In this document: piece by piece, positions 9,449 to 28,226 of the stretch
Position numbering within the stretch: position 1 is the stretch's first letter
How the letters are laid out: each line of letters starts with the position of its first letter
Virus record (IMG/VR): IMGVR_UViG_3300050821_013316
Span: 1 to 37,594 of that record
DNA: 37,594 nt
Reading direction: 5' to 3' (one strand)
DNA from: a virus
Translations under genes and position numbers: made by a program
The notes under the pieces: generated by a model
Databases searched by the model: none
What the model was told of the DNA's origin: nothing
What the model saw: the letters and a program-made list of their open reading frames with translations, nothing else

Positions 9449-9994
9449 ATGACCTCGCCGATCCTCGAACCGCTTCGAGCCCTCGCCGTCCCCGTCGACA
9501 ACCTGCAACACGACCCCGACAACGCCCGCCGCGGCGACACCGCCGCCGTGCGCCGCTCCCTGAAGGCGTTCGGCCAACGCAAACCGGTCGTCGCCAAACG
9601 CATCGGCGACGCCGCCGACGGCACCCCGACCGGCATCGTCATCGCCGGCAACACCACCCTGGAAGCCGCCCTCGAGCTCGGCTGGCCGATGATCGCCGCG
9701 GTGTTCGTCGACGACGACACGATGACCGCCCGCGCCTACGCCCTCGCCGACAACCGCACCGCCGAACTCGCCTCCTGGGACGAACAGCAACTGTCCGAGC
9801 ACCTGCGCTCGCTGGCCGACGTCGAGTTCGACATGACCGTGCTCGGCTGGACCGGCGCGGACCTTGCCGCCCTGCTCGGCGACCCCGGCGACCTGGCCGG
9901 CTTCCCCTTGGCCGAACCCGGCGGCAACGGCGACGAGATCAAGGCCGGCAAGACGGTCACCTGCCCCAACTGCGGCGAGGAATTCGAGCCGTGA
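9449..9994 (+). CDS. ParB-like nuclease-domain protein with C-terminal zinc ribbon
   Basis: The 181-residue product follows the ParB/Srx N-terminal pattern: ILEPLRALAVPVDNLQHDPD, then AAVRRSLKAFGQRKPVVAKR, the central VIAGNTTLEAALELGWPMIA (equivalent of the GxxR box region) and ADNRTAELASWDEQQLSEHL. A CPNCGEEFEP zinc-knuckle end is added. ATG 9449 has AGGAA at 6 nt. In phages such proteins sit next to DNA methyltransferases and modify or regulate, rather than segregate (family context). It overlaps the methyltransferase start as GTGA at 9991. Confidence 0.85.
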   Translation: MTSPILEPLRALAVPVDNLQHDPDNARRGDTAAVRRSLKAFGQRKPVVAKRIGDAADGTPTGIVIAGNTTLEAALELGWPMIAAVFVDDDTMTARAYALADNRTAELASWDEQQLSEHLRSLADVEFDMTVLGWTGADLAALLGDPGDLAGFPLAEPGGNGDEIKAGKTVTCPNCGEEFEP

Positions 9995-11059
9995 CCGACT
10001 ACCCGGCCACCCTGGCCGCCGCCTGGGCCGCCCACCAAGCCCCCCGCGCACCGGACGCGCCGACCGTGGCCGTCGACGTTCGCCGGCGCCGGCGGGTCGT
10101 CGCTCGGGTACTCGATCGCCGGGTTCCGGGAACTGCTCGCCGTCGAGTGGGACGACCACGCCGCGGCCTGCCTGACCCGCAACTTCCCCCACGTGCGCGT
10201 CTTCCACGGCGACATCGCCGACCTCGACCCGGCCGTCCTCGACCTGGAACCCGGCATGCTGGACGTCCTCGACGGCTCCCCGCCGTGCCAGGGCTTCTCG
10301 ATGATCGGCAAACGGATCCTCGACGACCCCCGCAACCAGCTCTTCCGCGAGTTCGTCCGCCTGCTGACCGCGTGGCAGCCGAAGGTGTTCGTGATGGAGA
10401 ACGTGCCCGGCCTGGTCATCGGCAAGATGAAGGCCGTCTTCGCCGAGATCATGGCCGAGCTGCACGACGCCGGCTACACCGTGCAGGCCCGGGTGATGAG
10501 CACCGAATACTTCGGCGTCCCGCAGAAACGCCGCCGGCTGGTGTTCGTCGGCATCCGCGACGACCTCGGTGTCGCACCCGAGCACCCGCGCGCCCGCACC
10601 AGGCCGTTGACCGTCCGCGACGCCCTCGCCGGCCTCGACACGCCGGGCCTGGTCGCCCCGATCGGCGGCCAGAAGGCCCCCAAACTCGCCCGGATCGTGC
10701 GGCCCGGCCGTAACGGCGCCGACGCCCTGACCTCCTACGGGCACAAGCTGCGCGGCTTCGGCTTGGCCCGGCTCGACTGGCACAAACCCGCGCCGACGCT
10801 GATCAAGTCGTTCTTCCCCGCCGGCTACGTCGCCCTGCTGCACCCCGACGACGACCGGTACGTCGGCACCCGCGAGCTCGCCCGGCTGCAGTCGTTCCCC
10901 GACGAGTACGACTGGGCCGACTCCACCTACATGCAGATCCACAACCGGCTCGGCAACAGCGTCCCCCCGCTGTTCATGCACGCGATCGCCGAGACGGTCG
11001 CCGGCATCCTCGAGCGCGCCCGCGCCCGCGCCGGGGCTGCGGTGGCCGAGCCGGCATGA
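9991..11059 (+). pseudogene. C5-cytosine DNA methyltransferase, frameshifted in motif I
   Basis: The start GTG 9991 (overlapping the upstream stop) gives MTDYPATLAAAWAAHQAPRA, then APTVAVD, which should run into DLFAGAGG. Instead the frame changes after GAC 10075-10077; motif I (FAGAGGSSLG) continues only from TTC 10079. After that every motif is intact: GSPPCQGFS with the catalytic Cys codon at 10286-10288, VFVMENVPGL, QKRRRLVFVG, and the final RLGNSVPPLFM. Normal 5-methylcytosine methyltransferases read VDLFAG; a CT loss (GACCTGTTC to GACGTTC) would explain the break. Without a frameshift only a fragment from GTG 10193, lacking the cofactor site, can be made. A sequencing error or a +1 recoding event are the alternatives. 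Confidence 0.9.
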
Positions 11060-11926: not shown

Positions 11927-12092
11927 CCCGACCCGCCCCCTGCCTCGCTGTGCTCGACGACCGTCGCAGCGTAGCCGCAGGCACCGGGATCCGAGACACA
12001 CCGAAACGACGTGACAAAGAAACAACCCCCGGCCGGGTGCCGGGATGACCACGGCCGGGCGCACGGGTCATGAGGAGAGGGGAGCCGGCCCG

Positions 12093-12626
12093 ATGGGTGC
12101 GCGCATCCCCGACAAGCAACGACAGCGGATCCTCGCCGCCATCCGCCGAGGCGACAAGTCCTGCCGGGCGATCGCCAAGGCCCACAACGTCTCCCCCGCC
12201 ACCGTCTCGGCGCTGGCCCGCGAACACGGCCTGTCGTTCGAACGTTCAGAGGCAAAAACGCGCGCGGCGACCGAAGCGCGGATCTTCGACGCGAAAGCCG
12301 CCCGCGCAGCGATGGTCGAACGGCTGCACGGCGACGCCGAACGGCTGCGCCGACGCGCCTGGGAACCTTCCACGACGCTGGTCGGTACGGGCGCGGCGGC
12401 GGCCTGGGTGACCTACGAGCTGCCGTCGTTCCGCGACCAGCAGGCCGCCTACACGTCTGTCGGGATCGCCCTGGACAAGGCCCTGGCGCTCGAGCGGTAC
12501 GACGACGACGCCGGCCTGACCGCCGGACGCACGATGCTCGGCGACCTGATGGACGCGCTCGGGCTGGTGCACGAGCGGATCGTCGCCGAGGACCAGGACG
12601 CGGCCGGCCTCGAGGACACCGCCTGA
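12093..12626 (+). CDS. Terminase small subunit-like helix-turn-helix protein
   Basis: ATG 12093 has a G-rich ribosome site (GAGGAGAGGGGAG). The 177-residue product starts MGARIPDKQRQRILAAIRRG and has a Hin/resolvase-type helix-turn-helix, SCRAIAKAHNVSPATVSALA, then a long helical region. This is the normal layout of small terminase subunits that sit directly before the large subunit, as here with a TGATG join to 12626. An in-frame ATG at 12045 is an alternative start but has a weaker ribosome site. Function as DNA-recognition subunit is inferred from place and fold. Confidence 0.75.
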   Translation: MGARIPDKQRQRILAAIRRGDKSCRAIAKAHNVSPATVSALAREHGLSFERSEAKTRAATEARIFDAKAARAAMVERLHGDAERLRRRAWEPSTTLVGTGAAAAWVTYELPSFRDQQAAYTSVGIALDKALALERYDDDAGLTAGRTMLGDLMDALGLVHERIVAEDQDAAGLEDTA

Positions 12627-13939
12627 TGGTCGCCGACGCGGCCTACGAGGCGGCGCTGGCGGTGATGTCCCGCAAGCAGATCCGCAGCGTCTTCGAGGCC
12701 ACCGCCCGGGTGAACGTCTGGCACGGCGCCGTCAGCTCGGGCAAGACGATCGCGAGCCTGCTGGCGTTCCTGCTGGCCGTGGTCACCGCCCCGCGCAACG
12801 GGCTGATCCTGGTCGTCGGCCGCACCATCCAGACGGTCGAGCGCAACGTGATCGACGTGCTGATGCAGCCGGCCGGCCCGTTCGGGCTGGTGTCGCGGTG
12901 GGTCGTGCACTCGCGCGGCGCGAACACCGCGATCGTGTTCGGCCGGGTCGTGCACCTGATCGGCGCAAACGACGTGCGTGCCGAGGGCCGCATCCGCGGC
13001 GTCACTGCCGCCCTGATCTACATCGACGAGATCACCCTCATCCCCGAGGGCTTCTTCACCATGTGCCTCAGCCGCTTGCGGGTGCCGGGGGCGCGGCTGT
13101 TCGGCACGACCAATCCCGACGGGCCCCTGCACTGGCTGCGCAAGAACTTCCTGCTGCGCGCCGCCGACCTCGACCTGCGGCAATGGCACTTCGACCTCGA
13201 GGACAACCCCAGCCTGACCGACGCGTACAAGACCGCCCTGCGCGCCGAGTACGTCGGCCTGTTCTTCCGCCGGTTCATCCAGGGCCTGTGGTGCCTGGCC
13301 GAGGGCGCGATCTTCGACATGTTCGACCCGGACGTGCACGTGGTGACCGAGCTGCCGGCGATCGAACGGTGGATCGGCACCGGTGTGGACTACGGCACCA
13401 CCAACCCGTTCGCGGCCGAGCTGCTCGGCCTCGGCGTCGACGGCGTGCTGTATGTGGTGTCGGAGTACTACTACGACTCGAAGGCTACCTACCGACAACT
13501 GTCCGACGACGAGTACAGCAAACACGTCCTGGACTGGCTCGAGCACGTCCCGATCCCGCACGGCGGCGGCCTGGCCGGGGTACGCCCGCAGTGGACCGTC
13601 ATCGATCCGTCCGCCGCCTCGTTCCGGGTGAAGCTGCACCACGACGGGCTGCCGTCGGTGATGGCCGACAACCGGGTCCTGCCCGGTATCCGGCTGGCGG
13701 CCGGTCTTCTCGCGACACGACGGCTCAAGATCCACCATTCGTGCACGGGCCTGATCGCCGAGCTGCCAGGCTATTCGTGGGACCCGAAGGCCGCCGCCGC
13801 CGGCGAGGACGCACCGGTGAAAGCCAACGACCATGCCATCGACGCCCTCAGATACGTACTTGCGACCACGGAGGGGACCTGGCGGTTCCGGCTGCGCGAA
13901 CCGGACCTGCCCGACACCCGGAAGGAACCGGCCCGATGA
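12626..13939 (+). CDS. terL: Terminase large subunit
   Basis: A 437-residue motor-nuclease. Walker A is GAVSSGKT (residues 34-41); Walker B is ALIYIDEIT with D134 and the catalytic E135. The coupling motif GTTNPDGP follows. The nuclease domain has D255 (GVDYGTTNPF), D327 (VIDPSA) and D406 (NDHAIDALRY), the three acidic sites expected for the RNase H-like fold of the PBSX/terminase-3 family. It pumps DNA into the prohead and cuts concatemers. Full length and intact. ATG 12626 overlaps the previous stop. Confidence 0.95.
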   Translation: MVADAAYEAALAVMSRKQIRSVFEATARVNVWHGAVSSGKTIASLLAFLLAVVTAPRNGLILVVGRTIQTVERNVIDVLMQPAGPFGLVSRWVVHSRGANTAIVFGRVVHLIGANDVRAEGRIRGVTAALIYIDEITLIPEGFFTMCLSRLRVPGARLFGTTNPDGPLHWLRKNFLLRAADLDLRQWHFDLEDNPSLTDAYKTALRAEYVGLFFRRFIQGLWCLAEGAIFDMFDPDVHVVTELPAIERWIGTGVDYGTTNPFAAELLGLGVDGVLYVVSEYYYDSKATYRQLSDDEYSKHVLDWLEHVPIPHGGGLAGVRPQWTVIDPSAASFRVKLHHDGLPSVMADNRVLPGIRLAAGLLATRRLKIHHSCTGLIAELPGYSWDPKAAAAGEDAPVKANDHAIDALRYVLATTEGTWRFRLREPDLPDTRKEPAR

Positions 13940-14328
13940 CCGCCACCAGCAGCGACCTGCCCCGCCGCGGCGTACGCACCCTCGACGAGCGCGACACCCG
14001 CCCTCCGGCGCCGGACCCCGTCGTCGACCGGGGCGGCACGATGCCGCAGGGCGACCCGAAGCCGCCGGATAGCGCCGCGACCTGGCTCGGCCGGCGCATC
14101 GCGGTCGCCGACGACCACGCCCCCGCCGCCCAGCACATCGGCTGGCTGGCCGCCCAGCGCGCCGTCACCGCCTGCGAGATGGCGGAGAAACTCGCCGCCG
14201 TCGGCAAGGCCGACGGGGTGTCGCAGTTCCTGGCCGTCGCCGACCAGTACCGGCAGATCGCCGCGGTCTGCGCTGCACGCGGCGGGATCACCGCCCCCAA
14301 AGGCCCCGACGACAAAGACGGCACGTGA
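13936..14328 (+). CDS. Hypothetical head-region protein
   Basis: ATG at 13936 overlaps the terL stop (ATGA). The 130-residue product has an unstructured Arg/Pro-rich N-terminus (about 50 residues) and a helical C-terminal half (HIGWLAAQRAVTACEMAEKL, then AVADQYRQIAAVCAARGG). No family is recognised. Position between terminase and portal genes suggests a packaging or head role. Confidence 0.7.
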   Translation: MTATSSDLPRRGVRTLDERDTRPPAPDPVVDRGGTMPQGDPKPPDSAATWLGRRIAVADDHAPAAQHIGWLAAQRAVTACEMAEKLAAVGKADGVSQFLAVADQYRQIAAVCAARGGITAPKGPDDKDGT

Positions 14329-14399
14329 CCGTGCGGCATGCGGTCACCGTGTCCATGTTGGCCTTCGTCCTCGGGCTGATCCTCGCGGTGTACTGGTGA
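14325..14399 (+). CDS. 24-residue single-span membrane peptide
   Basis: GTG 14325 overlaps the previous stop and TGA 14397-14399 overlaps the next GTG (14396), so this frame fits exactly between two genes by GTGA joins. The peptide is VTVRHAVTVS then MLAFVLGLILAVYW: a short basic lead and one membrane helix. It is too short for normal gene callers. No family is known to me; it resembles small phage membrane peptides in size only. Confidence 0.6.
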   Translation: MTVRHAVTVSMLAFVLGLILAVYW

Positions 14400-14599
14400 C
14401 CCCCAGACTCGAACAGTTGCGGCTGGTCGTCGAGGCCGCCTACGACGACGGCACCGTCGAGCGGCTGCACGAACAGGCCCACCCGCCGCGGTGCGCGATC
14501 TGCGGCGCCGACCTGCAGAACCCCGACGACGGCGTCGCCGCCTCGCTGGCCGCGCTGGACGACACGACCGCGTTCATCTGCCACAACCACACGACCTGA
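14396..14599 (+). CDS. 67-residue putative zinc-binding protein
   Basis: GTG 14396 is coupled to the tiny membrane peptide. The product starts VTPRLEQLRLVVEAAYDDGT, then has CAICGADLQ (near residue 35) and a terminal CHNHTT. CxxC together with CxH is a plausible zinc site. No family is recognised. Confidence 0.7.
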   Translation: MTPRLEQLRLVVEAAYDDGTVERLHEQAHPPRCAICGADLQNPDDGVAASLAALDDTTAFICHNHTT

Positions 14600-14613
14600 C
14601 CGGGGGGTTACCG

Positions 14614-14865
14614 ATGGCCGCCAAGACACCGCAGCAGGAAGCCGCCGTCAACCGGCTCCGCGCGTGGGCCGTCGGCCCCGAAGGCCAGAAACAGTTCCGC
14701 TGGGGCACCCCCGGAGATTTCAAGCGCTGCCAGGACTTCTATGCCGACAAGATCCCCCTGCGCATGATCCCCGGCTGGTGCGCGACCCTGCACAAGCTGG
14801 CCACCGGCGCGACACCCGGCCATGCGCCCGCCGAAGCGGCGATCGCCAAGGCCAAAGGCAAATAA
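14614..14865 (+). CDS. Conserved 83-residue phage head-region protein
   Basis: ATG 14614 follows CGGGGGG at about 7 nt. The product is MAAKTPQQEAAVNRLRAWAV, then GQKQFRWGTPGDFKRCQDFY, ADKIPLRMIPGWCATLHKLA and a Thr/Ala-rich end. Small proteins of the pattern WG.PGDF.RC...........GWC...H occur next to the portal gene in many actinophages (recalled, unchecked). Two Cys and one His may bind metal. Exact role unknown. Confidence 0.75.
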   Translation: MAAKTPQQEAAVNRLRAWAVGPEGQKQFRWGTPGDFKRCQDFYADKIPLRMIPGWCATLHKLATGATPGHAPAEAAIAKAKGK

Positions 14866-14871
14866 GAGGCA

Positions 14872-14971
14872 CCCGGCGTTGCGGGGATCGTGCCCGCCCG
14901 GGGCGACCCCGGCCCGATCGTCGAGCACCGGTCCCGGCCGCGATTGCCCCTTCCGTGCCCGCAACGCCGGG
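14872..14971 (+). other. Long-range inverted repeat before the portal gene
   Basis: CCCGGCGTTGCGGG (14872-14885) and CCCGCAACGCCGGG (14958-14971) are perfectly complementary over 14 bp, enclosing 72 nt that can form further GC hairpins. It fills most of the 148-nt gap between 14865 and the portal start at 15014. It could be a structured mRNA leader, or a processing or attenuation site. No protein gene is supported here. Confidence 0.6.
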
Positions 14972-15013
14972 CCCCGCACCACCACCGAACAGGAACTATC
15001 ACGAGCTGGGGGT

Positions 15014-16858
15014 GTGACCGAGGTGCCGCTGCCGACCGACCCCCGCACCGTCTGGCCCCCGAACAACCTCGAGCGCCCCTACCGGGCATTCGCGACCTGG
15101 GCCGCCTGGTACTCCGGCGACCCGAACGAGCTCGCCCGCATCTACGACAAGATGGTCGGCTACGGCTACGAAACCCCCGCCCTGGAGTCCGGGGCCAGCA
15201 TCATCGGCCGCGAACGGCAACGCTGGTTCTGGGGGCGGCGCCTCGACCGGCGCACCCCGGACCTGTCCGACGCCCGCCTGCACGTGCCCCTGGCCGGCGA
15301 CATCGCCACCACATCGGCCGACCTGCTGTTCGCCGAGCCCCCGGCGATCGCCGTCGAAGGCGAGGACGGCGGCCTGTCGAAGGACGGGCCACGGCCGACG
15401 ACCGACCGGCTGGCCATGCTGATGGGCGAGGGCGGCTTCCTGCCGGTACTCATCGAGGGCGCCGAGATCGGCGCGTCGCTGTCGGGAGTGTTCCTGCGCG
15501 CCGGCTGGGTCGACGACATCGCCGACCACGCGATCATCGACGCGATCCAACCCGACTGCGCCGTCCCCGAATGGGCCGCCGGCCGGCTCAAGGCGGTCAC
15601 GTTCTGGCGGATCCTGGACGGCGAGACGACCGGCAAGACGTTGCGGCACCTCGAGCGGCACGAGGCCGATACCGGCGCCGGCCGGGTCCTGCACGCCCTC
15701 TACCAGGGCACCGACAGCGAACTGGGCTCCCTGGTCGACCTCAGGACGTACCCGGACACCGAGGCCCTGGCCGAGACGACCGAGTCCGCGGCCGGTGTCG
15801 ACAACCCGCTGGTGCAGCAGGTCGTGACCGGCGCGAAACGGATCGCGGTCGAGTGGATCCCGAACATGCGGCCGCCGCGCCGGCTCAAAGGCACCGCCTA
15901 CGGCCGGTCGGACTACGACGGCATCGAACCGGTCCTGGACTCGATCGACGAGGCGTGGTCGTCGTGGATGCGCGACCTGCGCATCGGCAAAGGCCGCATC
16001 CTGATCCCCGAGTCCTACCTGCAGAACCAGGGCCGCGGCCGCGGCGCGGTGTTCGACGCCGAGCAGGCGATCTTCACCATGGTCGACGCGATGCCCGCCT
16101 CCGAGGGCCTGGCGATGCAGCAGGTGCAGTTCGCGATCCGGGTCGCCGAGCACCAGCAGACCGTCACCTCCCTGGTCGCCGAAGCGCTGAGGGGTGCCGG
16201 TTACAGCGCGCAGACCTTCGGCCTGGCGGGGGATGTTGCCGCTACGGCGACCGAGGTCGTCGCCCGCGAGCGGCGCTCGTACACCACCCGGGGCCGCAAG
16301 ATCCTCTACTGGAAACCGGCCCTGGCACGGCTGCTGGAGACGGCGCTCGAGATCGACATCGCGCACTACAAACCCGACGGGGTGCAGGCGGTCCGGCCGA
16401 AGATCCGGTTCCCCGACGGTGTCGCCCAGGACCCGCTGTCGGTGGCGCAGACCGTGAGCCTGATCGCCGGGGCCGAGTCGGCGTCGCTCTACACCCGGAT
16501 CGCCTGGCTGAACCCGGACTGGGAGGACCCGCAGATCCGGGAGGAGATCGACCGGATCCGCGACGACCAACGCGCCACCGTCGAGATCAACACCCCGGCG
16601 GTGCCCGAACCCGGCACCGGGCCCAACGACACCGCCGCGGCCGGCCTCGAACAGCCACTGCCGGCCGACACCGGCGGCCCGGACCAGTCGGTCGCCGGTC
16701 CCGTACCCGGCCAGCCCGACACCATCGGCCAGGACACCGGCCAGCCGCCGCCCGGCCCCCCGCAGCAGCCCGGCTCGAAGCCGGGCCGGCCGGGCGGGCC
16801 GCCGCCGTTCGGCCGCAAGGGCCCGCCCCCGCCCGGTCGCGGCGGCAAGCGCCGGTAG
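15014..16858 (+). CDS. Portal protein (SPP1 gp6-like family)
   Basis: A 614-residue protein. GTG 15014 has a GGGGG run just before it. The N-terminal part has an amphipathic start (LERPYRAFATWAAWYSGDPN), the wing and clip region follow, and the middle contains the portal-typical stretch with DGIEPVLDSIDEAWSSWMRD and a long stem helix (AEHQQTVTSLVAEALRGAGY). The C-terminus (residues 560-614) is Pro/Gly-rich and ends in GPPPPGRGGKRR, probably unstructured. It forms the dodecameric entry port for DNA. Assigned from size, placement between terminase and minor capsid genes, and pattern. Confidence 0.85.
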   Translation: MTEVPLPTDPRTVWPPNNLERPYRAFATWAAWYSGDPNELARIYDKMVGYGYETPALESGASIIGRERQRWFWGRRLDRRTPDLSDARLHVPLAGDIATTSADLLFAEPPAIAVEGEDGGLSKDGPRPTTDRLAMLMGEGGFLPVLIEGAEIGASLSGVFLRAGWVDDIADHAIIDAIQPDCAVPEWAAGRLKAVTFWRILDGETTGKTLRHLERHEADTGAGRVLHALYQGTDSELGSLVDLRTYPDTEALAETTESAAGVDNPLVQQVVTGAKRIAVEWIPNMRPPRRLKGTAYGRSDYDGIEPVLDSIDEAWSSWMRDLRIGKGRILIPESYLQNQGRGRGAVFDAEQAIFTMVDAMPASEGLAMQQVQFAIRVAEHQQTVTSLVAEALRGAGYSAQTFGLAGDVAATATEVVARERRSYTTRGRKILYWKPALARLLETALEIDIAHYKPDGVQAVRPKIRFPDGVAQDPLSVAQTVSLIAGAESASLYTRIAWLNPDWEDPQIREEIDRIRDDQRATVEINTPAVPEPGTGPNDTAAAGLEQPLPADTGGPDQSVAGPVPGQPDTIGQDTGQPPPGPPQQPGSKPGRPGGPPPFGRKGPPPPGRGGKRR

Positions 16859-16864
16859 CCTGCC

Positions 16865-17956
16865 ATGCCGGTCGACGAAACCCTGGTCGATCAGATCGTC
16901 GCGGCGGCCACGAACATCTACGACGACGCCGAACTGGCGATCCTGCGGTACGTGACCGCCCGGCTGGCCCGCGGCCTGGACGCTGCCGACTGGCAGACCC
17001 GGCGGCTGGCCGAGATCGGCCAGCTCCGGACCGGGCTGCGGGCGATCGCCGCCCGCCTCGCCGGTGAGGGCAGCACCGCCGCCCGGGCCGCTGTAGCGGC
17101 CGGCTGGCGGGCCGGATCGCAGTCGGCGGTCGAGGACCTGGGCGGGGTCGGGAAAGTGGCCCAGAAAGCCCCACAGGCCGTCCAGGCCCTGGCCGACGCG
17201 CTGGTCTCGGAGCTGCGGCCGCTGCACTCGCAGATCCTGCCGCGGGCCGAGTCGGCCTACCGCAACGCGATCGGCGCCGCGACCGGCCGCAGCCTGTCCG
17301 GGGTCGCCTCCACCCGCCGCGCCGCGCAGGCCGCCTGGGCCGCGCTGGTCGACGACGGGATCGTCTCGTTCACCGACACCTCCGGCCGCCGCTGGCGGCT
17401 GTCGTCGTACGTCGAGATGGCCACCCGCACGGCGGTCGCCAGGTCGATCGACGTCGGCGTGATCGACCAGGTGCAGGCCGCGGGCGGCCGGCTGGTGTAC
17501 GTGACCGACCGGCCCCAGGAATGCCGGTGGTGCCGGCCGTGGGAGCACAAGATCCTGTCGATCACCTACCCGGTCGAGAAACCGGCGGTCGGCACGGTCG
17601 GGCAGGCCCGCCGGGCCGGGCTCGGGCACCCGAACTGCCGGCACACCCTCGTGCCCTGGATACCCGGCCTGCGGCTGGCCCCGGGCAAACCCGATCCGGT
17701 CGGCGACGCGGCCCGCCAGCATCAGCGCTACCTCGAGCGCGGTGTGCGCAGATGGCGCGAACGGCAGACCGGCGCGCTGACTCCGGAGGGCCGGGCCGGC
17801 GCGACCGCAAAGGCCGCGGCATGGGAGAAGCAGCTCGTCGCACACCTGCACCGCACCGGGCTGGCCCGCAAGGTCCACCGCGAGTACCCCGGCGCCGGGT
17901 ACGCGGCCAGGCCGTCGCGGCGGGCCGACACCGCCCGGCACCTTCGAGGTCAGTAG
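16865..17956 (+). CDS. Phage minor capsid protein 2 (MuF-like)
   Basis: A 363-residue protein from ATG 16865, 6 bases after the portal stop. Helical N-terminal part, then the domain with STRRAAQAAWAALVDDGIVS, ECRWCRPWEHK and GLGHPNCRHTLVPWIPGL. The C..C...H.NCRH signature is typical of the Phage_min_cap2/MuF group, which sits with the portal and is packed in the head (family knowledge). C-terminal residues 295-363 are basic and helical. Its last 7 bases overlap the convergent toxin gene. Confidence 0.85.
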   Translation: MPVDETLVDQIVAAATNIYDDAELAILRYVTARLARGLDAADWQTRRLAEIGQLRTGLRAIAARLAGEGSTAARAAVAAGWRAGSQSAVEDLGGVGKVAQKAPQAVQALADALVSELRPLHSQILPRAESAYRNAIGAATGRSLSGVASTRRAAQAAWAALVDDGIVSFTDTSGRRWRLSSYVEMATRTAVARSIDVGVIDQVQAAGGRLVYVTDRPQECRWCRPWEHKILSITYPVEKPAVGTVGQARRAGLGHPNCRHTLVPWIPGLRLAPGKPDPVGDAARQHQRYLERGVRRWRERQTGALTPEGRAGATAKAAAWEKQLVAHLHRTGLARKVHREYPGAGYAARPSRRADTARHLRGQ

Positions 17957-18243
17957 GCGAACAGCTCGCCGATCTCGGCCATCACCCGGTGCATCGATGC
18001 GCCGGTGATCATCCCGAGCGCTCTGCCGTCCTGCGGGCGCTCGACCGCGGCGACCAGGGTCGACAGCACCACCCCGGACACCGGATCGGCCTCCGACAGG
18101 GCCACCGCGGCGCCGGCCGGGCGGCCGTAGCCGCGGACCACCGGCACCACCACGGGGGCGTTCAACGGGTGGTCGTTGTGCGGGTCGGAGCTGACGACCA
18201 GGACCTTGCCGAAGTTCAGCTCCCAGAACTCGCCCTGCCTCAT
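17950..18243 (-). CDS. MazF/PemK-like toxin
   Basis: ATG 18243 overlaps the antitoxin stop (ATGA). The 97-residue product has the MazF order: MRQGEFWELNFGKVLVVSSD, the hydrophobic strand VVVPVVRG, DPVSGVVLSTLVAAVE, then LGMITGASMHRVMAEIGELF. It is closest in layout to mycobacterial MazF4-type proteins, which share DPxxG...LGxxxxAxMxxI. The Arg that usually precedes PVLVV is a Lys (GKVLVV) and the Thr/Ser after VVVP is Val, so cleavage activity is uncertain (read from sequence against recalled family). MazF proteins are sequence-specific RNases. It is transcribed against the capsid genes. Confidence 0.85.
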   Translation of the reverse strand: MRQGEFWELNFGKVLVVSSDPHNDHPLNAPVVVPVVRGYGRPAGAAVALSEADPVSGVVLSTLVAAVERPQDGRALGMITGASMHRVMAEIGELFAY

Positions 18244-18494
18244 GCGTTCCACGCCTCGGCGGTACGGCGTGCGGCCTGTTGCAACGGCACGACGGCCTGC
18301 CGGTAGGCGGTGATCTGCTCGGCGATCTGCGGTTGCGCGCAGTAGGTCGCGTAGGCGTCGGCGGCCTGCCGGCGCCGGCGTTCGCGGCCGGCCGCGGTCA
18401 GCCAGGACGCCAGGCTCATCCCGGCGTCCTGGGCGGCCTGCCGGAACCGCTCGAGCTCGGCTGCGGGGAGCGTCACGCTCCGATGGTTCGCCAT
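18240..18494 (-). CDS. Antitoxin of the MazF-like pair (ribbon-helix-helix-like)
   Basis: ATG 18494 is chosen because a TAAGAT box lies 7 nt before it, which fits a leaderless message; ATG 18503 is an alternative. The 84-residue product begins MANHRSVTLPAAELERFRQA, where RSVTLP is the DNA-contacting strand of a ribbon-helix-helix and the next helices follow; the C-terminus (ATYCAQPQIAEQITAYRQAV) would wrap the toxin. Gene order antitoxin then toxin with a 4-bp overlap is the normal type II arrangement. Confidence 0.8.
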   Translation of the reverse strand: MANHRSVTLPAAELERFRQAAQDAGMSLASWLTAAGRERRRRQAADAYATYCAQPQIAEQITAYRQAVVPLQQAARRTAEAWNA

Positions 18495-18501
18495 GACGGT
18501 C

Positions 18502-18539
18502 ATCTTAGTGGTCACCACTGACTACCACCACAGACTACC
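18502..18539 (-). promoter_or_regulatory. Leaderless promoter and palindromic operator of the toxin-antitoxin pair
   Basis: The -10 box is TAAGAT on the minus strand (18507-18502), 7 nt before ATG 18494; no good -35 is visible. The plus-strand 13-mer AGTGGTCACCACT at 18507-18519 is a perfect palindrome overlapping the -10. Two GACTACC copies at 18520-18526 and 18533-18539, 13 bases apart, follow. Autoregulation by the antitoxin at this site is expected for the type. Confidence 0.65.
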
Positions 18540-18617
18540 CCAACACATTCACATAACCCCGCTGTCCCAGCCAGGGGCGGGCGGGGCGCACGGAGAAAAG
18601 TTCCATCCACATCACAC

Positions 18618-18652
18618 GGAAAGGCCGGTCGCCGGGCGCGACCGGCCTTTCC
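18618..18652 (+). terminator. Perfect 14-bp hairpin before the scaffold gene
   Basis: GGAAAGGCCGGTCG (18618-18631) pairs perfectly with CGACCGGCCTTTCC (18639-18652) around a 7-nt loop. With AAA and TTT at the stem ends it has the form of a bidirectional intrinsic terminator, though only a short U-run follows on the plus strand. It lies 23 bases before the scaffold ATG and would act on rightward transcripts from the portal side or on leftward ones. The remaining gap 18520-18617 holds no gene. Confidence 0.75.
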
Positions 18653-18675
18653 CATGTCGAGAGGCGAGTCTGCAC

Positions 18676-19587
18676 ATGAGCGACGGAGCAGGAACCCCGG
18701 GCGGGTCCGGCGACGCGGGGGCGGCCGGCGGGACCGGCGGCACCACCACGACCGACAGCGGCACCGGCGACAACGGCGGCAGCCCGATGACGGTCGAGCA
18801 GATCGAGCAGGCCGCCACCGGCCGCGAAGCCGCCCCCGGAGACGGGACGACGGGCACCGCGACCGGTACGACGATCGGCGGTCCGGCTGTGCGGTCCACC
18901 GCACCACCGGCCTCCGCACCGACCCCGACCACGCCCCCGGCCCCGGCGCCGACTACGCCGCCGGCACCCGGCGGCGGTCAGGTGTCCGAGGAGTTCGACC
19001 AGCTCCCGCCCTGGGCGCAGAAACGCATCCGGGGCCTGGAGAAGGAGAACGGCGACAACCGGGTCAAGGCCAAGACCGCCCAGGAGACGGCCGACGAGCG
19101 GGTCAAGGACAACGCCGACAAGCTCCAGGGCTTCCTGGACGGCTTCGCCAAGGTCATGGGCCTGACCCAGGAGCCCGAGGACCGGCCCAAGACGATCGAC
19201 GAGGCGATGCAGCGCATCGAGGCCTCCAACGGCCGGGTGCAGGAGTGGATGGACAAGTACCGGCAGTTGCAGGTCCGGGAAGCGGTCTGGCAGACCGCCG
19301 CCGAGCAGGGCGCCAACACCAAGGAGCTCATGGACTCGGCCGCGTTCCTGGGCAAGCTCGAGGGCCTCGACCCCGCGGCCGGCGACTTCGGCGGCAAGCT
19401 CGCCGCCCTGATCACCGCCCACGTGGAGTCCAACCCCGCTCGATTCAAGGTGGTGCCGCCTGCGGTGCCGCCCAAACAGTCTGGAGGCGAGTTCGGCGGC
19501 GGGCCCGGCGGACGACCCAACGACGAAGAAATGTCCATCGAGGACCACATCCGCAAGATCGACCCCGTTGTCGCCGGCAGGCGTTAG
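18676..19587 (+). CDS. Capsid scaffolding protein
   Basis: A 303-residue protein from ATG 18676. The first 100 residues are Gly/Thr/Ala/Pro-rich and disordered. Then comes a charged helical coiled-coil part (EEFDQLPPWAQKRIRGLEKE, then KAKTAQETADERVKDNADKL) and a C-terminal region ending SIEDHIRKIDPVVAGRR, whose basic end could bind the coat protein as scaffolds do. Placed right before the major capsid gene, the normal site. Assigned from composition and place. Confidence 0.8.
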   Translation: MSDGAGTPGGSGDAGAAGGTGGTTTTDSGTGDNGGSPMTVEQIEQAATGREAAPGDGTTGTATGTTIGGPAVRSTAPPASAPTPTTPPAPAPTTPPAPGGGQVSEEFDQLPPWAQKRIRGLEKENGDNRVKAKTAQETADERVKDNADKLQGFLDGFAKVMGLTQEPEDRPKTIDEAMQRIEASNGRVQEWMDKYRQLQVREAVWQTAAEQGANTKELMDSAAFLGKLEGLDPAAGDFGGKLAALITAHVESNPARFKVVPPAVPPKQSGGEFGGGPGGRPNDEEMSIEDHIRKIDPVVAGRR

Positions 19588-19611
19588 CGGGGTTTTGCGC
19601 GTCTAGGGGTG

Positions 19612-19644
19612 CGGTTCTCCCGGCACTTCCGTTGAGGGAGACCG
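19612..19644 (+). promoter_or_regulatory. Hairpin that can hide the ribosome site of the major capsid gene
   Basis: CGGTTCTCCC (19612-19621) pairs with GGGAGACCG (19636-19644) over 9 bp with one bulge, across a 14-nt loop. The right arm contains the GGGAG ribosome site of the capsid gene, 8 nt before GTG 19649. It could stabilise the transcript end or limit translation. Seen directly; role is inferred. Confidence 0.5.
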
Positions 19645-19648
19645 AACC

Positions 19649-20560
19649 GTGGCTAACACAATCCTTACCCCGACCGTCATCGCCCGCCGGGCGATCGCGA
19701 TCCTGTACCGCGACACCGTCCTGTCGCAGCTCGTGCACCGCGACTACGAGGACGAGTTCGCGAACAAGATCGGTGACACCATCACGATCCGCAAGCCGCA
19801 GACCTTCGTGGCCAACGACTTCAACCGGGCGACCGGCATTGTGCTGCAGAACTACACCGAGACCGGCATCCCGATGACCTTGAACAAGTTCAAGGACGTG
19901 TCCTTCGCGATCACCGCGGAGGAACTGACCCTGAAGATCGACGACTTCTCGGGACGGTTCATCCAGCCGGCCGTCGCGGCGATCATCCAGCAGCTCGAGG
20001 CCGACCTGCTGGCGCTGCGTTCCAGCATCCCCACCTACGTCGGCAACGTCGCGGGCGAGATGTGGAACACGCCGGAGTCGCTGATCGCCGCCCGCCGCGA
20101 GCTGTCGCTGCGCGGTGTGCCGATCACCGACCGGTACGCCGTCGTCGGATCGATCACCTCCGGCGAATGGCTCAAGAACGACCTGCTGAAGAAGGCCAAC
20201 GAGCGCGGCGACACGCAGGGCCTGCGCGAAGCCAGCCTCGGCAACCGGCTCTTCTCGTTCGACGCCTACGAGCACAACGGGATCAGCCTGCCGCCGCAGA
20301 CCACCGGCAACCCCGCCAGCGAGGTGTCCCTGGCATTCCACCGCGACGCCATCGCCCTCGCCGTGCGGCCCCTGGCCGTGCCGATGGGCGTCGCCGCGGG
20401 GCAGTGCGCGATCGCCAACTACAACGGCTTGGGCATCCGGGTCACGTACGGCTACGACATCACGCACAAGGTCGACATGGTGTCGCTCGACATCCTCTAC
20501 GGCATGACGGTCGTCGACGCGCAGCGGGCCGTTCTCATCCACGCCGCACCGCTGCCGTAA
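19649..20560 (+). CDS. Major capsid protein (P22 gp5-like fold)
   Basis: A 303-residue protein from GTG 19649. It begins MANTILTPTVIARRAIAILY and has DYEDEFANKIGDTITIRKPQ, then FSGRFIQPAVAAIIQQLEAD, the spine-helix region, and ends in VDMVSLDILYGMTVVDAQRA. The DTITIRKPQ and long spine helix pattern matches the P22 coat protein (gene 5) family. Length is a little short for P22 itself (430) but usual for actinophage members. It makes the icosahedral shell with the scaffold. Confidence 0.9.
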   Translation: MANTILTPTVIARRAIAILYRDTVLSQLVHRDYEDEFANKIGDTITIRKPQTFVANDFNRATGIVLQNYTETGIPMTLNKFKDVSFAITAEELTLKIDDFSGRFIQPAVAAIIQQLEADLLALRSSIPTYVGNVAGEMWNTPESLIAARRELSLRGVPITDRYAVVGSITSGEWLKNDLLKKANERGDTQGLREASLGNRLFSFDAYEHNGISLPPQTTGNPASEVSLAFHRDAIALAVRPLAVPMGVAAGQCAIANYNGLGIRVTYGYDITHKVDMVSLDILYGMTVVDAQRAVLIHAAPLP

Positions 20561-20601
20561 CCGCCCGCTGCTACCCCACCACGAGTGGAGGACCGATCAT
20601 C

Positions 20602-21183
20602 ATGACTGTTCACGCCTACAAGAACCTGGTCACCGGCGAGGTGTTCGCCTTCGGCGACGCCCGCCCCGACCTCGAAGCCCGACCCAACTGGGAGAAGACC
20701 GACGCCGGCGACCTCGACGACGCGGTCGTCGACGCGGTCGCCGCGCAGTCGCATACCGCCCGGGTCATCACCGAGGCCGCCAAGGCCGAGCCCGGCGGAC
20801 CCAGCGGCCTGGGCGGGGTCGCGATCACCAACCCGGTCCCGGACACCCTCGCCCCCGGCCCGGGCCGCGGCTTCGGCGGGGTCCTGTCGCGCAACGTCGT
20901 GTCCGGCACACCGCCGGAGGTGCTGCGCGCGCAGGCCGCGGCCGATACCGAGGCCCTGGCCACCCACGGCGTCCTGGCCGACAACGTCGACGGGTCGAAG
21001 ACCCGCGTGCACGTCGACGCGCTGAACGCGGACATCGTCAACGCCCCGCCGGTCGGCGACCCCGGCAAGTCCGGTGTCAAGAAGACCGCGGCCGCCGCGC
21101 ACAAGGCCGCCGAGAAGCACCAGCAGCGGACCCAGGCCGCCGACAAGGCCGCCGTCGACAGGACCGGCAAACCGGCCGGCTGA
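20602..21183 (+). CDS. Hypothetical virion-associated protein
   Basis: ATG 20602 follows GGAGG at 11 nt. The 193-residue product starts MTVHAYKNLVTGEVFAFGDA, has DARPDLEARPNWEKTD near the start and a long Ala/Lys-rich helix at the end (KKTAAAAHKAAEKHQQRTQA). The first 45 residues resemble the small head protein that follows capsid genes in many siphophages, while the rest is low-complexity. Its place after the capsid gene suggests a head-decoration or head-completion role (inference). Confidence 0.65.
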   Translation: MTVHAYKNLVTGEVFAFGDARPDLEARPNWEKTDAGDLDDAVVDAVAAQSHTARVITEAAKAEPGGPSGLGGVAITNPVPDTLAPGPGRGFGGVLSRNVVSGTPPEVLRAQAAADTEALATHGVLADNVDGSKTRVHVDALNADIVNAPPVGDPGKSGVKKTAAAAHKAAEKHQQRTQAADKAAVDRTGKPAG

Positions 21184-21200
21184 AGCCCGGCCCACCGATC

Positions 21201-21264
21201 GTGGCGGGCGTACGGCCTACGGGTCGATCTCGCGGCGAGGGGACTCCCACCTTGCGCCCGCCAC
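21201..21264 (+). other. Structured intergenic hairpin, multibranched
   Basis: GTGGCGGGCG (21201-21210) pairs with CGCCCGCCAC (21255-21264). The 44-nt interior holds smaller stems (GTACGGCCTAC, CTCG-CGG-CGAG, GGG-ACT-CCC), giving a branched structure. It lies in the 120-nt gap between 21183 and 21304. It has cloverleaf-like shape but no tRNA features. Probably an mRNA-stability or termination element. Confidence 0.5.
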
Positions 21265-21303
21265 CCCCAACCACCCCGACAACAAACAGCAGGAGGCCGG
21301 CCG

Positions 21304-21678
21304 ATGCTGAGCGACGACGGGCGCGACGCCGCCGTGGACGGCCTGGCGGCCGCCGCCGGCTACATGAGCCTGCACGCCGACGACCCCGGCATTGCCGGGG
21401 ACAACGAGCTGACCGGCGGCGCCCCGCCCTACCAGCGGCAGCAGGTCGTCCGCAGCCCGAGCGGCCCCGGCACCCGGGACCTGTCCGACCCGGCTACCTT
21501 CAACATCCCGGCCGGCGCGATCGTCGCCTGGTTCGGCTACTGGACCGCCCTTTCCGGCGGCAAGTTCATCGGTGCCGACGAGCTGGTCGACGACCTGGGC
21601 AACCCGATCGTCGAGACGTTCAGCGGGCAGGGCACCTATACCGTGACCACCGCCCCGCTGACCGTCGACGCCGGTTGA
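21304..21678 (+). CDS. Phage virion protein, probable decoration or fibre-related
   Basis: ATG 21304 has GGAGG 7 nt upstream. The 124-residue product contains the stretch NIPAGAIVAWFGYWTALSGG, then KFIGADELVDDLGNP and FSGQGTYTVTTAPLTVD. Small proteins of this pattern (an IPAG.V..FGYW.A..GG..LG..........E.F..QGTYT core) are recurrent in actinophage structural regions (recalled). Beta-rich; function unproven. Confidence 0.7.
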   Translation: MLSDDGRDAAVDGLAAAAGYMSLHADDPGIAGDNELTGGAPPYQRQQVVRSPSGPGTRDLSDPATFNIPAGAIVAWFGYWTALSGGKFIGADELVDDLGNPIVETFSGQGTYTVTTAPLTVDAG

Positions 21679-21692
21679 AGGAGGCGACGGCC

Positions 21693-22130
21693 GTGGGCAG
21701 CGATAATGTCATCCTCTCCCCCATGTCCGGCGGCCCGGTCATCGCCGCCGACGACATCGCCGGGGTGAAGGTCCAACGCGTCAAGATCGGTTCCGGTGCC
21801 GACGGCGTCTATACCGACGTCAGCGACACGGCGCCGCTGCCCGCGCAGATCCTCGCCGGGCCGGTCGTAGGCAACGACCGGGCCGCGGTCGCCGACCCCG
21901 GCACCGCGCAGCCGCTGCCCGCCCACGCCGGCATCTACGGCCTGACCGTCCGGGCCATGCCCGGCAACCAGGGGTTGATCTTCCTCGGCGGCCCGGCCGT
22001 GACCATGCTCTCCGGCTTTCCCCTCGCCCCGGGCGAGGCGATCAGCCTCGACGTGCGCGACAGCTCCGCGGTCTATATCGACGCCGAGCAGCGCAACGAC
22101 GCGGTCGCGATGGTCTGGGTGAGCGCATGA
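21693..22130 (+). CDS. Hypothetical virion protein
   Basis: GTG 21693 with AAGGAGG 8 nt upstream. The 145-residue product, with [20 protein letters not shown], then [20 protein letters not shown] and a beta-rich C-terminus ([20 protein letters not shown]), has the VKVQRVK...GADG.YTDVS pattern common in actinophage virion proteins near fibre genes. Its stop overlaps the start of the collagen-like gene (ATGA at 22127). Confidence 0.7.
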
Positions 22131-23677
22131 GGACCGGCCTGGCTGTTCGCGGCCCGACCGGGGCAACCGGCCCGCAAGGCGACCGGGGGCCTGCCGGCGA
22201 CCCCGGACCCGCGGGCGACCCGGGACCTGCGGGACCGGCCGGAGGCGAAGGACCTGCCGGCCCTGTCGGACCCGCCGGACCGCAAGGCCCCGGCGGCACG
22301 TTCTCCCAGATCGTGCTGTCCGCCGGCTTCGACGACACTGCTGCCCCGCCGCCGGACTACACCCTGCGCGGCGAACTGGACTGGCAGGCCGCCGAAACCA
22401 GGGACGTCGCCTACGCCCAGAACCTGCTGCTGCGCAACATTCGCGCCGTTGTCGAGGTCCTGCAGGACGCGACCAACGCCGCCCAAGGCCCGCCCGGCAT
22501 GCCGGGCAACCCGGGCACGACCGGCCCGCAAGGCCCGGCCGGGCCGACCGGACCCGCCGGCGCCACCGGCCCGACCGGACCCGCCGGAGCGCCGGGCGAC
22601 CCTGGCCCGCAAGGCCAACCCGGATCGGCCGGCACTGCCGGCCCGGCCGGTGGCACCGGACCCGCCGGCCCGGAAGGCCCTACCGGGCAGACCGGCCCGG
22701 AAGGCCCCGCCGGGCAGACCGGCCAGACCGGACCGGCCGGCGCGACCGGACCCGCCGGACCGACCGGACCGCAGGGCGACCCCGGCCAGCAAGGCATTCC
22801 CGGCCCGACCGGCGAGCAAGGCCCTGCCGGGTCGTCGTCGTCGGCCTACGCCTACAACTGGTCCCTTACCTCGGTCGCGCCGCCCTCGAACGGGCAACTG
22901 CGTACCGACGGCGCCACCGCCGACGTCTCGGCGCTGTTGTGGATCGACTACGTGCAATCCTCCGGCGACGCCGTCGCCCCGCTGCTGCGCGCCATCACCG
23001 CGGGCGACACCCTCACCGTCCAGGACCGGAGCAACTCGTCCGCCTTCGCGGTGTTCACCGTTACCGCCGACGCCGTCGACTATCCGGCCCAGACGTACAT
23101 CGAGGTACCCGTCGCCTACCAGAACGGTGTCGGCGTAGCGAAGAACAACCAGTCGGTCACCCTGTTCCACCAGATGCGCGGCACGCAGGGCCCGCCGGGT
23201 CCTGCCGGTGCGCAGGGCCAGCCCGGCCCGGCCGGCGCGACCGGCCCGGCCGGGGCCACCGGACCCGCCGGTCCGGCCGGCCCCGCAGGCGACCCCGGAC
23301 CTGCCGGGCCGACCGGACCCGCCGGCCCGCTCGGCGGCACCGGCCCGGCCGGTGCGACCGGCCCCGCCGGACCTGCGGGCGACCCCGGCCCTGCCGGCGG
23401 TACCGGCCCGGCCGGGGCGACCGGCCCCGCCGGCCCCGCGGGCGATCCCGGCCCCGCAGGCGCGACCGGCCCTACCGGGCCTGCCGGGGCGACCGGCCCT
23501 GCCGGGCCCGGCGGTGCGACCGGCCCTATCGGGCCGACCGGCCAGTCCGGACCCGTCGGCCCGCAAGGCCCGGTCGGGGCGACCGGCCCGGCCGGACCGA
23601 CCAGTTTGAACGTCGTCAGTTTCAGCCCGACTCCCCCGGTAAATCCGCAGGTCGGCGACTTTTGGTGGAAGGGCTGA
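22127..23677 (+). CDS. Collagen-like fibre protein with three Gly-X-Y blocks
   Basis: A 516-residue protein. Gly-X-Y triplets, mostly GPx, fill about residues 8-57, 120-236 and 352-492; globular segments separate them at 58-119 ([20 protein letters not shown] and a helix) and 237-351 (a beta-rich domain). The C-terminus, [20 protein letters not shown] plus WWKG, is the common ending of phage fibre proteins. Collagen-like blocks in phages form triple helices as rigid spacers of head or tail fibres (family knowledge). Because it lies in the head module, it may be a head fibre. The repeats give near-tandem 9-bp DNA units, so copy number may vary between isolates. Confidence 0.9.
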
Positions 23678-23682
23678 ACCGC

Positions 23683-24708
23683 ATGACGTACAGCAAGGTG
23701 ACCCTCACACAGGCCACGGGCACGCAGGCGTCCACCGACGAGATGAAAGGCGTCCTGGACTCGGCGCTGAATGCCTCCGGCAAGTACTCGAAGGTCTCTG
23801 CCGGGTATGTCTTCGGCACTCGCTTCTACGACGTGTGGCGCAACGACGGCACCACCGACGGCTACCAGTGGTATTTGATCACGGTGTACGACACGGCCAG
23901 CCAGGGCCGCGTCCAGCTTGGCGGCTGCCTGGAGTACGACGACCCGACCAGGATCACCAAGAAGGCCTTACGTGGCTACTCCGGGCTCGGGTTCCTGGAT
24001 GCCAACGGGTATCCGCTGGACGCGGCGGGCGGCAACGAGCTGACGATCGGTCTTGCTTCCTTCGGCAATTCCGGCGGCTACCAGACCGGCTGCACCGGTG
24101 CCCTGTCCGGCACTGGACCGCCGCAGGCCGTGCAGGGCAACATCCTGCGGGTGCTGGTGACCGGTCGTTTCGTGTGGATGCACTGGGGGACGGCGACCGT
24201 CCCGGTCTATGCGTGCGGGGTCGGTACCTACGATCGGCTGCACCCCAATACCACCGACTCGCGGCCGTTGGCGTTCATGGCCCACGCCTGCGCCGGCACG
24301 GGCACGACGGCCTGGCAGCACCCGGCGGCGACGGCCCCGACTGTGTGCCGCACCGCCTATGCGTCCATCCTCTCCACCACTACTACCGGTTTCGACCCCG
24401 CGATCTTCACCGCGCTCGCCGGGCAGATCGGCTCCGGCGACGGCGTCCCGGACCTGAACTGGAACGGTGTCTACGTCGGCTCCCGTATGCACATCACGCG
24501 CAGCGTCGGCGGGCCGAACACCGGCGGCGGCGCCAACATGCCCGCCGCGGGGCACTCCATCGGCCTGGTGCCCGACGACTTCCTGCTGTTCTTCCGCAAG
24601 GCGTCGGTGTTGACCGGGGACACGATCACGGTCAACGGCAAGACCTACGAGCACGTATCGGCCGGCGGATACGCGCTGCCCGGCGTGTTCATCAACACGG
24701 CCGCCTGA
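23683..24708 (+). CDS. Hypothetical virion protein, probable fibre-associated
   Basis: A 341-residue protein from ATG 23683 (GGAAGGG at 9 nt); GTG 23665 in frame is an alternative start. It begins [20 protein letters not shown] and is beta-rich, with many Gly/Asn/Tyr ([20 protein letters not shown]) and no membrane helices. Four Cys are scattered in the middle. The next gene is also beta-rich. By position it may be a tip or receptor domain of the collagen fibre (inference); I recognise no family. Confidence 0.7.
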
Positions 24709-24717
24709 GGGCTTGTC

Positions 24718-25215
24718 GTGGCCGACCTGGGAACGGGTGTCACCTATGCGCCGCGCACACCGGTCGCCGGTCTGACCGACAACGTCTACTACACGATGCC
24801 CAAGCAGGGCATCTACCTCGGTGTCGGCTGGTGGCCGTTCCTGGTCGTGCAAAGCCCCGCCGGTGCCACCGGCAGCAGCGTGTACTACACGCTGCGGGGT
24901 ATCCCGGCCGGGGCGCGACTCGGGCAGGGCGCGATCCCGGCGTTCCGGGTGGAGCCGACCGTCGGACCCAACAGTGTCTACTACGGGCCCCGGATAACGA
25001 ACTTGGGCAGCGGCCGGCGGTCGCTCAAGACACCGGTCTACCTGTCCGCCGCCCGGCCCGGCAGCGTCTTCTATACCAACACGATGACCCGCGCCTTCCT
25101 GTGGAACGGCACCCGGTGGGTGTCCGCCGACACCGTGACCGTCTGGAACGGCAGCCGGTGGGCGCCGCTGACCGAGTTCACCGCCTGGGCCGGCTCGCTC
25201 TGGGTCGGACCGTAG
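24718..25215 (+). CDS. Beta-rich hypothetical virion protein
   Basis: A 165-residue protein from GTG 24718, with MADLGTGVTYAPRTPVAGLT. Aromatic VYYT repeats and a C-terminal run of short Trp motifs (WNGTRWV, WNGSRWAPL, GSLWVGP) stand out; such Trp motifs are typical of phage fibre ends. It follows the 23683 gene by 9 bases and probably works with it. Confidence 0.7.
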   Translation: MADLGTGVTYAPRTPVAGLTDNVYYTMPKQGIYLGVGWWPFLVVQSPAGATGSSVYYTLRGIPAGARLGQGAIPAFRVEPTVGPNSVYYGPRITNLGSGRRSLKTPVYLSAARPGSVFYTNTMTRAFLWNGTRWVSADTVTVWNGSRWAPLTEFTAWAGSLWVGP

Positions 25216-25227
25216 AGGGGGCTGCTG

Positions 25228-25533
25228 GTGCTGCTGACACTGCTGCTGCCGGCCGAGGTAACCCCCGGCGGCGCCCGGTTCGCCAACGCCCGGCTGACCG
25301 TGCACGTGAGGCTGGTCGCGGTCGCGCCGCTGCCGGTCCTGCCGGCCGGGCTCACCACCGCGGCGACTACCGGCCCGGCGGCCGGCGGCCGCGGGCCGCG
25401 GGCCGGCACGACCGATACCGGGCCCCGGGCCGCGGCAACGCCTGCGAAGGCCGGGCCGCGGGCGTCCACCGGACCCGACACCGGTACCACCGCCGTGTCC
25501 GAGGCGGCCGGTGCCGGCGCCGGCATCACCTGA
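25228..25533 (+). CDS. Low-complexity hypothetical protein
   Basis: A 101-residue product from GTG 25228, with a G-run ribosome site. The first 45 residues are hydrophobic (MLLTLLLPAEVTPGGARFAN); the rest is Ala/Gly/Thr-rich and disordered. No family is recognised. The composition makes the frame less certain than its neighbours, but the start is well placed 12 bases after the previous stop. Confidence 0.5.
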   Translation: MLLTLLLPAEVTPGGARFANARLTVHVRLVAVAPLPVLPAGLTTAATTGPAAGGRGPRAGTTDTGPRAAATPAKAGPRASTGPDTGTTAVSEAAGAGAGIT

Positions 25534-25561
25534 ACAACAAGCACGAGAAGGGGGTGGGGTT

Positions 25562-26251
25562 GTGGCCGAGGTGGGCATCGGGCAGGTCGCCACGCTGGTG
25601 TTGGACCGCTACGACGAGACCACGTCCGCGACGCTCGTGGTGTGGTCGCCGCCCGATCCGGTCGACGGGCTGCGCCGGCAGGTCCCGGCGGTCGCGGTCA
25701 GCTCCGACGGGCACAAGACGTGGACGGCTGTGGTCGACCCCTACGACGTCGGCGGCCTGTGGTACCAGGAGTGGACGGTCACCGGCACCGGCAAGGGCCG
25801 CATCGTCAACGAGGTCCCGGTCGCCCCCGACCGGATGGCTGTGCCCGACCAGTACTCGTACGCCACCAGCGCCGACCTGGCCGCCTACATGCGCGACGAG
25901 CCGCCGCCGGACTGCGAACGGATGCTCGCCGACGCGACTCGCGAGATCGACCTGATGCTGCTGACGGCCCGCTACTGCGTCGACGACCAGGGGTTCCCGT
26001 CCGACCCCGGCCAACGCCAGGCGGTCCGCGACGCGGTCTGCGAGCTCGTCGCCTGGTGGAACGACACCGGCGACCCGTCCGGTGCCCTGGACGTCTACTC
26101 GAGCCTGTCCGCCGGGTCGATCTCGATCGGCCGGGCGACCGGCCGGGTCGCCGCCGGGCAGGCCAAGAGCGCCTCCACCAGGATCAGCCCGCAGGTCGCC
26201 GGGATCCTGCGCGCCGCCGGCCTGAGCCAGCAACCCCCGGACACGTGGTGA
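25562..26251 (+). CDS. Head-tail adaptor (connector) with N-terminal Ig-like segment
   Basis: GTG 25562 with a G-run site. The 229-residue product has a beta-rich N-terminal part (ATLVLDRYDETTSATLVVWS) and a helical C-terminal half: YATSADLAAYMRDEPPPDCE, RMLADATREIDLMLLTARYC and AVCELVAWWNDTGDPS. This helical half fits head-tail connectors of the gp6/gp15 group that bind under the portal. Its place between head and tail modules supports this. Confidence 0.75.
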   Translation: MAEVGIGQVATLVLDRYDETTSATLVVWSPPDPVDGLRRQVPAVAVSSDGHKTWTAVVDPYDVGGLWYQEWTVTGTGKGRIVNEVPVAPDRMAVPDQYSYATSADLAAYMRDEPPPDCERMLADATREIDLMLLTARYCVDDQGFPSDPGQRQAVRDAVCELVAWWNDTGDPSGALDVYSSLSAGSISIGRATGRVAAGQAKSASTRISPQVAGILRAAGLSQQPPDTW

Positions 26252-26255
26252 CCTC

Positions 26256-26948
26256 GTGATCGGGCGGGCCAGGACCAACGGCCGCAATCGGATGACCGGG
26301 CTGCCCGGGGTGCTGCTGACCGACGTCGTGACCGTCGAACCCTACCGGGACGTCGACTCCTGGGATACGGCGACGGCCGTGCGCTGCCTGGTCGACGAGA
26401 CCCCGTCGGACCTGCTGACCAACACCGGCACGATCAGCGACGTCACCGTCCGGCTGTTCTGCCCCCCGGACACCGACATCCCGAAGGGCTCCAAGGTCAC
26501 CCTGGCGGACGGCAGGTTGGGGTCGGTGCAGGCTGTCGCCGGCCGCGGGCTCACCAGCCTGTTCCCTGTCCCGAAGCACATCGAGGCCCATGTGCGGCTG
26601 GGCGTGTACGCGCCGACCCCGATCGGCGCGGTCACGGTCACGATCGTGCGGCGGCAGGTGACCGGCCGCGACCCGTACGGCAACGACGTCTACGGCGAGA
26701 CCCGGTTCGACGTCGCCGGGGTCGCCGTCGGGCAGATCACCAGCCAGGACAGCCAGCAGCCCGGCAACTCCCGGGTCACCAGGCAGCGGACCGTCGTGTT
26801 CCCGCCCGGTACGAGTGTCAGCCCGCAGGATCGGCTGATCATCTTCGGTCAGCGGTGGGGCATCGACGGCGAACCCTCCGTCGTCGTCGAACCGGTTCTC
26901 GGGCTCACCGCCGGGATCGTCGTGCGCGCCGTCCGCACCACCGGCTGA
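26256..26948 (+). CDS. Head-closure (stopper)-type protein
   Basis: A 230-residue protein from GTG 26256; ATG 26292 is an alternative start. Beta-rich with two similar halves: VRLFCPPDTDIPKGSKVTLA and VVFPPGTSVSPQDRLIIFGQ, each ending with a hydrophobic strand set, suggesting an internal duplication. Stopper proteins of siphophages are small beta-barrels in this gene position, between adaptor and gp10-like proteins. The call is inferred from place and fold. Confidence 0.65.
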   Translation: MIGRARTNGRNRMTGLPGVLLTDVVTVEPYRDVDSWDTATAVRCLVDETPSDLLTNTGTISDVTVRLFCPPDTDIPKGSKVTLADGRLGSVQAVAGRGLTSLFPVPKHIEAHVRLGVYAPTPIGAVTVTIVRRQVTGRDPYGNDVYGETRFDVAGVAVGQITSQDSQQPGNSRVTRQRTVVFPPGTSVSPQDRLIIFGQRWGIDGEPSVVVEPVLGLTAGIVVRAVRTTG

Positions 26949-26964
26949 AAGGAAGTGGGGGCGG

Positions 26965-27264: not shown

Positions 27265-27292
27265 ACCACCAACTCGAAGGGGGCTGTTTGCC

Positions 27293-28167: not shown

Positions 28168-28198
28168 GCGCACTGCTCGAACTTCCTCGCCGCGCATC

Positions 28199-28226
28199 AC
28201 CTCGCACCGGACCTCGGTGGCGGGGT
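28199..28226 (+). other. Hairpin before the major tail protein gene
   Basis: ACCTCGCACCG (28199-28209) pairs with CGGT-G-GCGGGGT (28215-28226) over 11 bp with one bulge and a 5-nt loop, followed by TCTTCGT. It lies in the 95-nt gap between 28167 and 28263. It could be a leaky terminator or a 5'-end stabiliser of the tail-protein message. Confidence 0.5.

Follow-up and report, generated by a model that had tools for sequence, protein, structure and literature searches.

Cytosine-C5 DNA methyltransferases of phages and bacteria (PF00145, TIGR00675, PHROG 116) are a known family, and many of the phage members have a ParB-like partner. One described phage enzyme, CmoX, is a cytosine C5-carboxymethyltransferase in which Arg350 binds the carboxylate of carboxy-SAM (Cx-SAM), standing in for Asn304 of M.HhaI, and homologues of CmoX often adjoin ParB-domain genes (PMC12783734). 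The methyltransferase gene described here, that of a soil phage, lies in the virus record IMGVR_UViG_3300050821_013316, which was analysed over its whole length (37,594 bases, positions 1 to 37,594) and is referred to below as the window. As in the family, the motifs of the window enzyme all stand in canonical order, its profile scores are significant and it has the ParB-like partner; the difference is the one-base frame break that the record shows before motif I.

The nearest solved relative of the window enzyme is CmoX of Synechococcus phage S-B43 (PDB 8YF3, E=1.5e-43), and both have a STFAGxGGSS motif I and SPPC. Membership of the CmoX group is nevertheless ruled out by its diagnostic Arg (criterion from PMC12783734), since the position of Arg350 is occupied by Asn (GNSVPP) in the window and in 24 of 24 relatives. 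No match to TIGR00740 (cmoA, the Cx-SAM synthase) was found within the 37.6-kb record, itself possibly incomplete. We predict the window enzyme to be a methyltransferase of the ordinary kind, using ordinary SAM. The fold family, the catalytic Cys and the motif X Asn are also common to M.HhaI and M.HaeIII, although these two reach only about 70-105 bits against the window and differ in motif I.

Our analysis makes it highly probable that the locus holds an ordinary ParB-linked phage C5-methyltransferase whose frame is broken, a few codons ahead of the cofactor-binding motif I, by one non-programmed inserted base. The features of the locus are as follows.

9449..9994, + strand: ParB-like gene, directly upstream of the methyltransferase (PHROG 620 ParB-like partition protein, E=2.3e-33)
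9991..10068, + strand: methyltransferase N-terminal segment, first frame, VTDYPATLAAAWAAHQAPRAPDAPTV, matching MTDYPATLRAAW..HLAPRA.DAPTV of relatives L003/L007/L008
10066..10072, + strand: frame-break site, one net extra base (15-sequence DNA alignment, window unique)
10073..11059, + strand: methyltransferase body, second frame (PF00145 194 bits; dcm superfamily TIGR00675 172 bits; 66/66 invariant columns kept)
10073-10108, + strand: motif I, STFAGAGGSSLG, second frame
10286-10288, + strand: catalytic Cys (GSPPC), second frame
10952-10969, + strand: GNSVPP, second frame

To place the break, motif I was compared in 24 related genes, 42-63% identical, from viral contigs and genomes. In nearly all of them the segment reads PTVxS(T/L/V)FAG(A/C/G)GGSSLG, with S in 24/24 and T in 18/24. 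The VDLFAG that an earlier note on this DNA had expected is wrong for this subfamily, occurring in 0/24 of the relatives, whereas S-x-FAG is present in all 24 and in the solved 8YF3. The second frame of the window gives S-T-F-A-G directly at 10073-10087 (TCG ACG TTC = 10073-10081), and motif I is therefore complete there, with no residue missing. Upstream, the N-terminus from GTG 9991 to PTV (10068) matches the relatives in the first frame. Between PTV and motif I the window has four bases where the 14 relatives in a 15-gene DNA alignment have three, and the extra base, just before the S of motif I, is found in the window only. The event is a net +1 at about 10066-10072; it lies upstream of motif I and not inside it, where the earlier note had put the break. 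The C6 tract at 10040-10045 is excluded as the break site because the residues that follow it, RAPDAPTV, still match the relatives in the first frame. Stop readthrough that would fuse ParB, which lies in the second frame, to the methyltransferase was likewise discarded, as the first-frame N-terminus matches the relatives.

The last bases of the ParB-like gene are shared with the start of the methyltransferase gene (GTGA). Read from GTG 9991, the first frame gives VTDYPATLAAAWAAHQAPRAPDAPTVAVD and is then Arg/Pro-rich until a stop at 10713. The record thus does present, as first reported, a C5-methyltransferase at 9991-11059 whose coding sequence changes frame close to the N-terminus. Also borne out is the intactness of the later motifs including the catalytic Cys: GSPPC, MENV, QKRRR and RLGNSVPP are all intact and all in the second frame, which scores 194 bits with Pfam DNA_methylase. 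The elements that define a C5-methyltransferase (motif I, PCQ with the catalytic Cys, ENV, Q.RR and GNS) are present in the right order, but no continuous frame runs from the start codon through motif I. The gene is a broken or mis-sequenced copy of a member of the DNA cytosine-C5 methyltransferase family, and is filed as such.

Apart from the break, the gene is well preserved. Every one of the 66 columns invariant among 22 relatives is kept, and GC at third positions (GC3) of the second frame is 0.94-0.99 in sliding windows from 10081 to 11040; the downstream part has therefore not drifted. Two Streptomyces genes at 62-63% identity match the window from motif I to their stop. Long open frames are common against this GC-rich background, which makes the absence of further stops a weak sign of intactness. 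The earlier view of one small event in an otherwise intact methyltransferase holds here, that event being the single net +1. A frame plot of the whole window, compared by eye with the list of open reading frames, revealed no second split gene.

The comparison with relatives that had been proposed as a check shows the break in none of them: among the viral-contig relatives examined at motif I none is broken, and in each the frame is open through the motif. A different start offers no way around the break either. In the second frame there is no ATG, GTG or TTG from the ParB stop (9994) to 10193, and the GTG at 10193 falls after motif I; therefore no alternative start rescues the enzyme. A ribosome starting at GTG 9991 would make 26 correct residues and then ~214 out-of-frame Arg/Pro-rich residues. 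We infer that no active enzyme would be produced, the second frame having its first start past motif I. The lesion would then stem from one of two causes, a null mutation that arose very recently in the sampled phage or a faulty contig consensus, and in our judgement the two carry about equal weight.

The first of these, in which a phage lineage in the sample lost the methyltransferase through one inserted base, we put at slightly less than an even chance. It draws on the quality of the assembly where this can be checked. A near-identical contig, IMGVR_UViG_3300021403_000050 (L118/L148), is the same as the window in every base of 23949-37594; over 11968-23948 the two disagree at the contig edge and in one variable patch, 13783-14073, and nowhere else. 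From this base-for-base agreement over about 25 kb it follows that the assembly has few random indels, a point that weighs somewhat against a pure artefact. The gene is furthermore dispensable in the kin group, as a kin phage, L119 (terminase 82% identical), does without a methyltransferase. Against a fresh null, every invariant residue is still kept and no second sequence covers the break: L118/L148 ends at 11968, just short of the methyltransferase gene, and a junction-spanning DNA pattern found no other contig in IMG/VR.

The second, a one-base consensus or assembly error in a phage whose own gene is intact, likewise stands a little below even. In its favour, the indel is single and isolated in an otherwise conserved gene, and two palindromes adjoin the break site, an 8-bp one at 10071-10078 and a 14-bp GC one at 10081-10094. 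The break of L118/L148 at 11968 also leaves the methyltransferase in a part that is covered once. However, in about 25 kb compared with L118/L148 no indel separates the two contigs beyond the variable patch, and the local fold is predicted to have a stability that is not out of the ordinary (z 1.29). The patch itself holds ~25 substitutions and small indels (net -12) relative to the otherwise near-identical L118, and is located around the terminase gene's 3' end and the beginning of the gene that follows.

The remaining explanations fare far worse. Loss of CT from GACCTGTTC within motif I, the event originally put forward, has on its side that the canonical C5-methyltransferase motif is DLFAG, but we consider it very improbable: S-x-F-A-G is of fixed length in 24/24 relatives, S-T-F-A-G of the window needs no missing residue, and against the 14 aligned relatives the window has one extra base. 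A CT loss is rejected because with it the window would exceed every relative by one residue and the invariant S would be replaced. Programmed +1 frameshifting as the source of the enzyme is scarcely credible. The two frames are conserved apart from the break, and the protein would be restored by a +1 shift there, but the break is absent from all relatives, the junction has neither a known slippery motif nor a stop close by (the first frame is open to 10713), and local structure is not above chance when compared with shuffles. Of the marks of a programmed +1 frameshift, the locus has neither the conserved break nor the slippery site nor the slow or stop codon, and it is exceedingly doubtful that the methyltransferase is made here only via inefficient +1 frameshifting that keeps enzyme dosage low. 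Phase variation through a mutable repeat is dismissed as hardly conceivable: one-base changes can switch genes and there is a C6 tract at 10040, but the frame is still right after that tract and the simple repeat of a phase-variable methyltransferase is missing from 10066-10072. A search of the literature at the level of titles and abstracts turned up no directly comparable case of a phase-variable or frameshifted phage methyltransferase. Among the causes that the earlier note had offered, decay and assembly error thus remain, while recoding and phase variation find no support; therefore a single non-programmed insertion is left, real and recent or a consensus error.

Several relatives of the gene are themselves split or rearranged. 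In the loci L023:2890-4962, L024:740-2803 and L025:2899-4962 (and in part L026) the N-terminal half (motifs I-VIII, about 205 aa) stands alone, and after it come three tandem ORFs that overlap (157, 146 and 182 aa in L023 and L025); each of them is a C-terminal half of its own, with GN(S/C)VPP at its end. To judge by this layout, such loci resemble a split C5-methyltransferase that has a choice of several C-terminal subunits, possibly for specificity, a candidate arrangement that may be more interesting than the frame break. Stand-alone fragments of C5-methyltransferases can work together, as in split enzymes such as M.AquI. The latter is named in PMC3404938. Two short phage protein families of unknown function, PHROG 23910 and PHROG 13621, match the C-terminal end of the methyltransferase and no other part of it; they may be C-terminal subunits that stand alone, as in L023. 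In L027:102-1097 a C-terminal piece (motif IX-X, GNSVPP) precedes motif I and the gene looks circularly permuted, and in L013:2480-3973 an extra in-frame C-terminal piece (motif IX-X, GNSVPP) stands ahead of a complete enzyme.

ParB-like homologues lie upstream of the methyltransferase in most relatives. The 86-kb record of L119 has no C5-methyltransferase match, and the corresponding place (L119:5069-7205) is taken up by a ParB-like gene, a TET-associated glycosyltransferase (TAGT; PF20691, 106 bits) and a PTPS/QueD-like gene. A search for TET/JBP dioxygenases (PF12851) gave no match, but its control matched nothing either, so that this negative carries no weight.

For annotation, the gene should be marked as probably a pseudogene or a consensus error; its true motif I is STFAG, and no deletion lies within that motif. 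L119 has a different DNA-modification-type cassette at the place taken by ParB and methyltransferase in the window, and the place adjoining ParB may be an exchange site for modification genes. If the null allele is real, C5 marking would be lost from this lineage, which might then be more exposed to restriction, or else less visible to modification-dependent defence.
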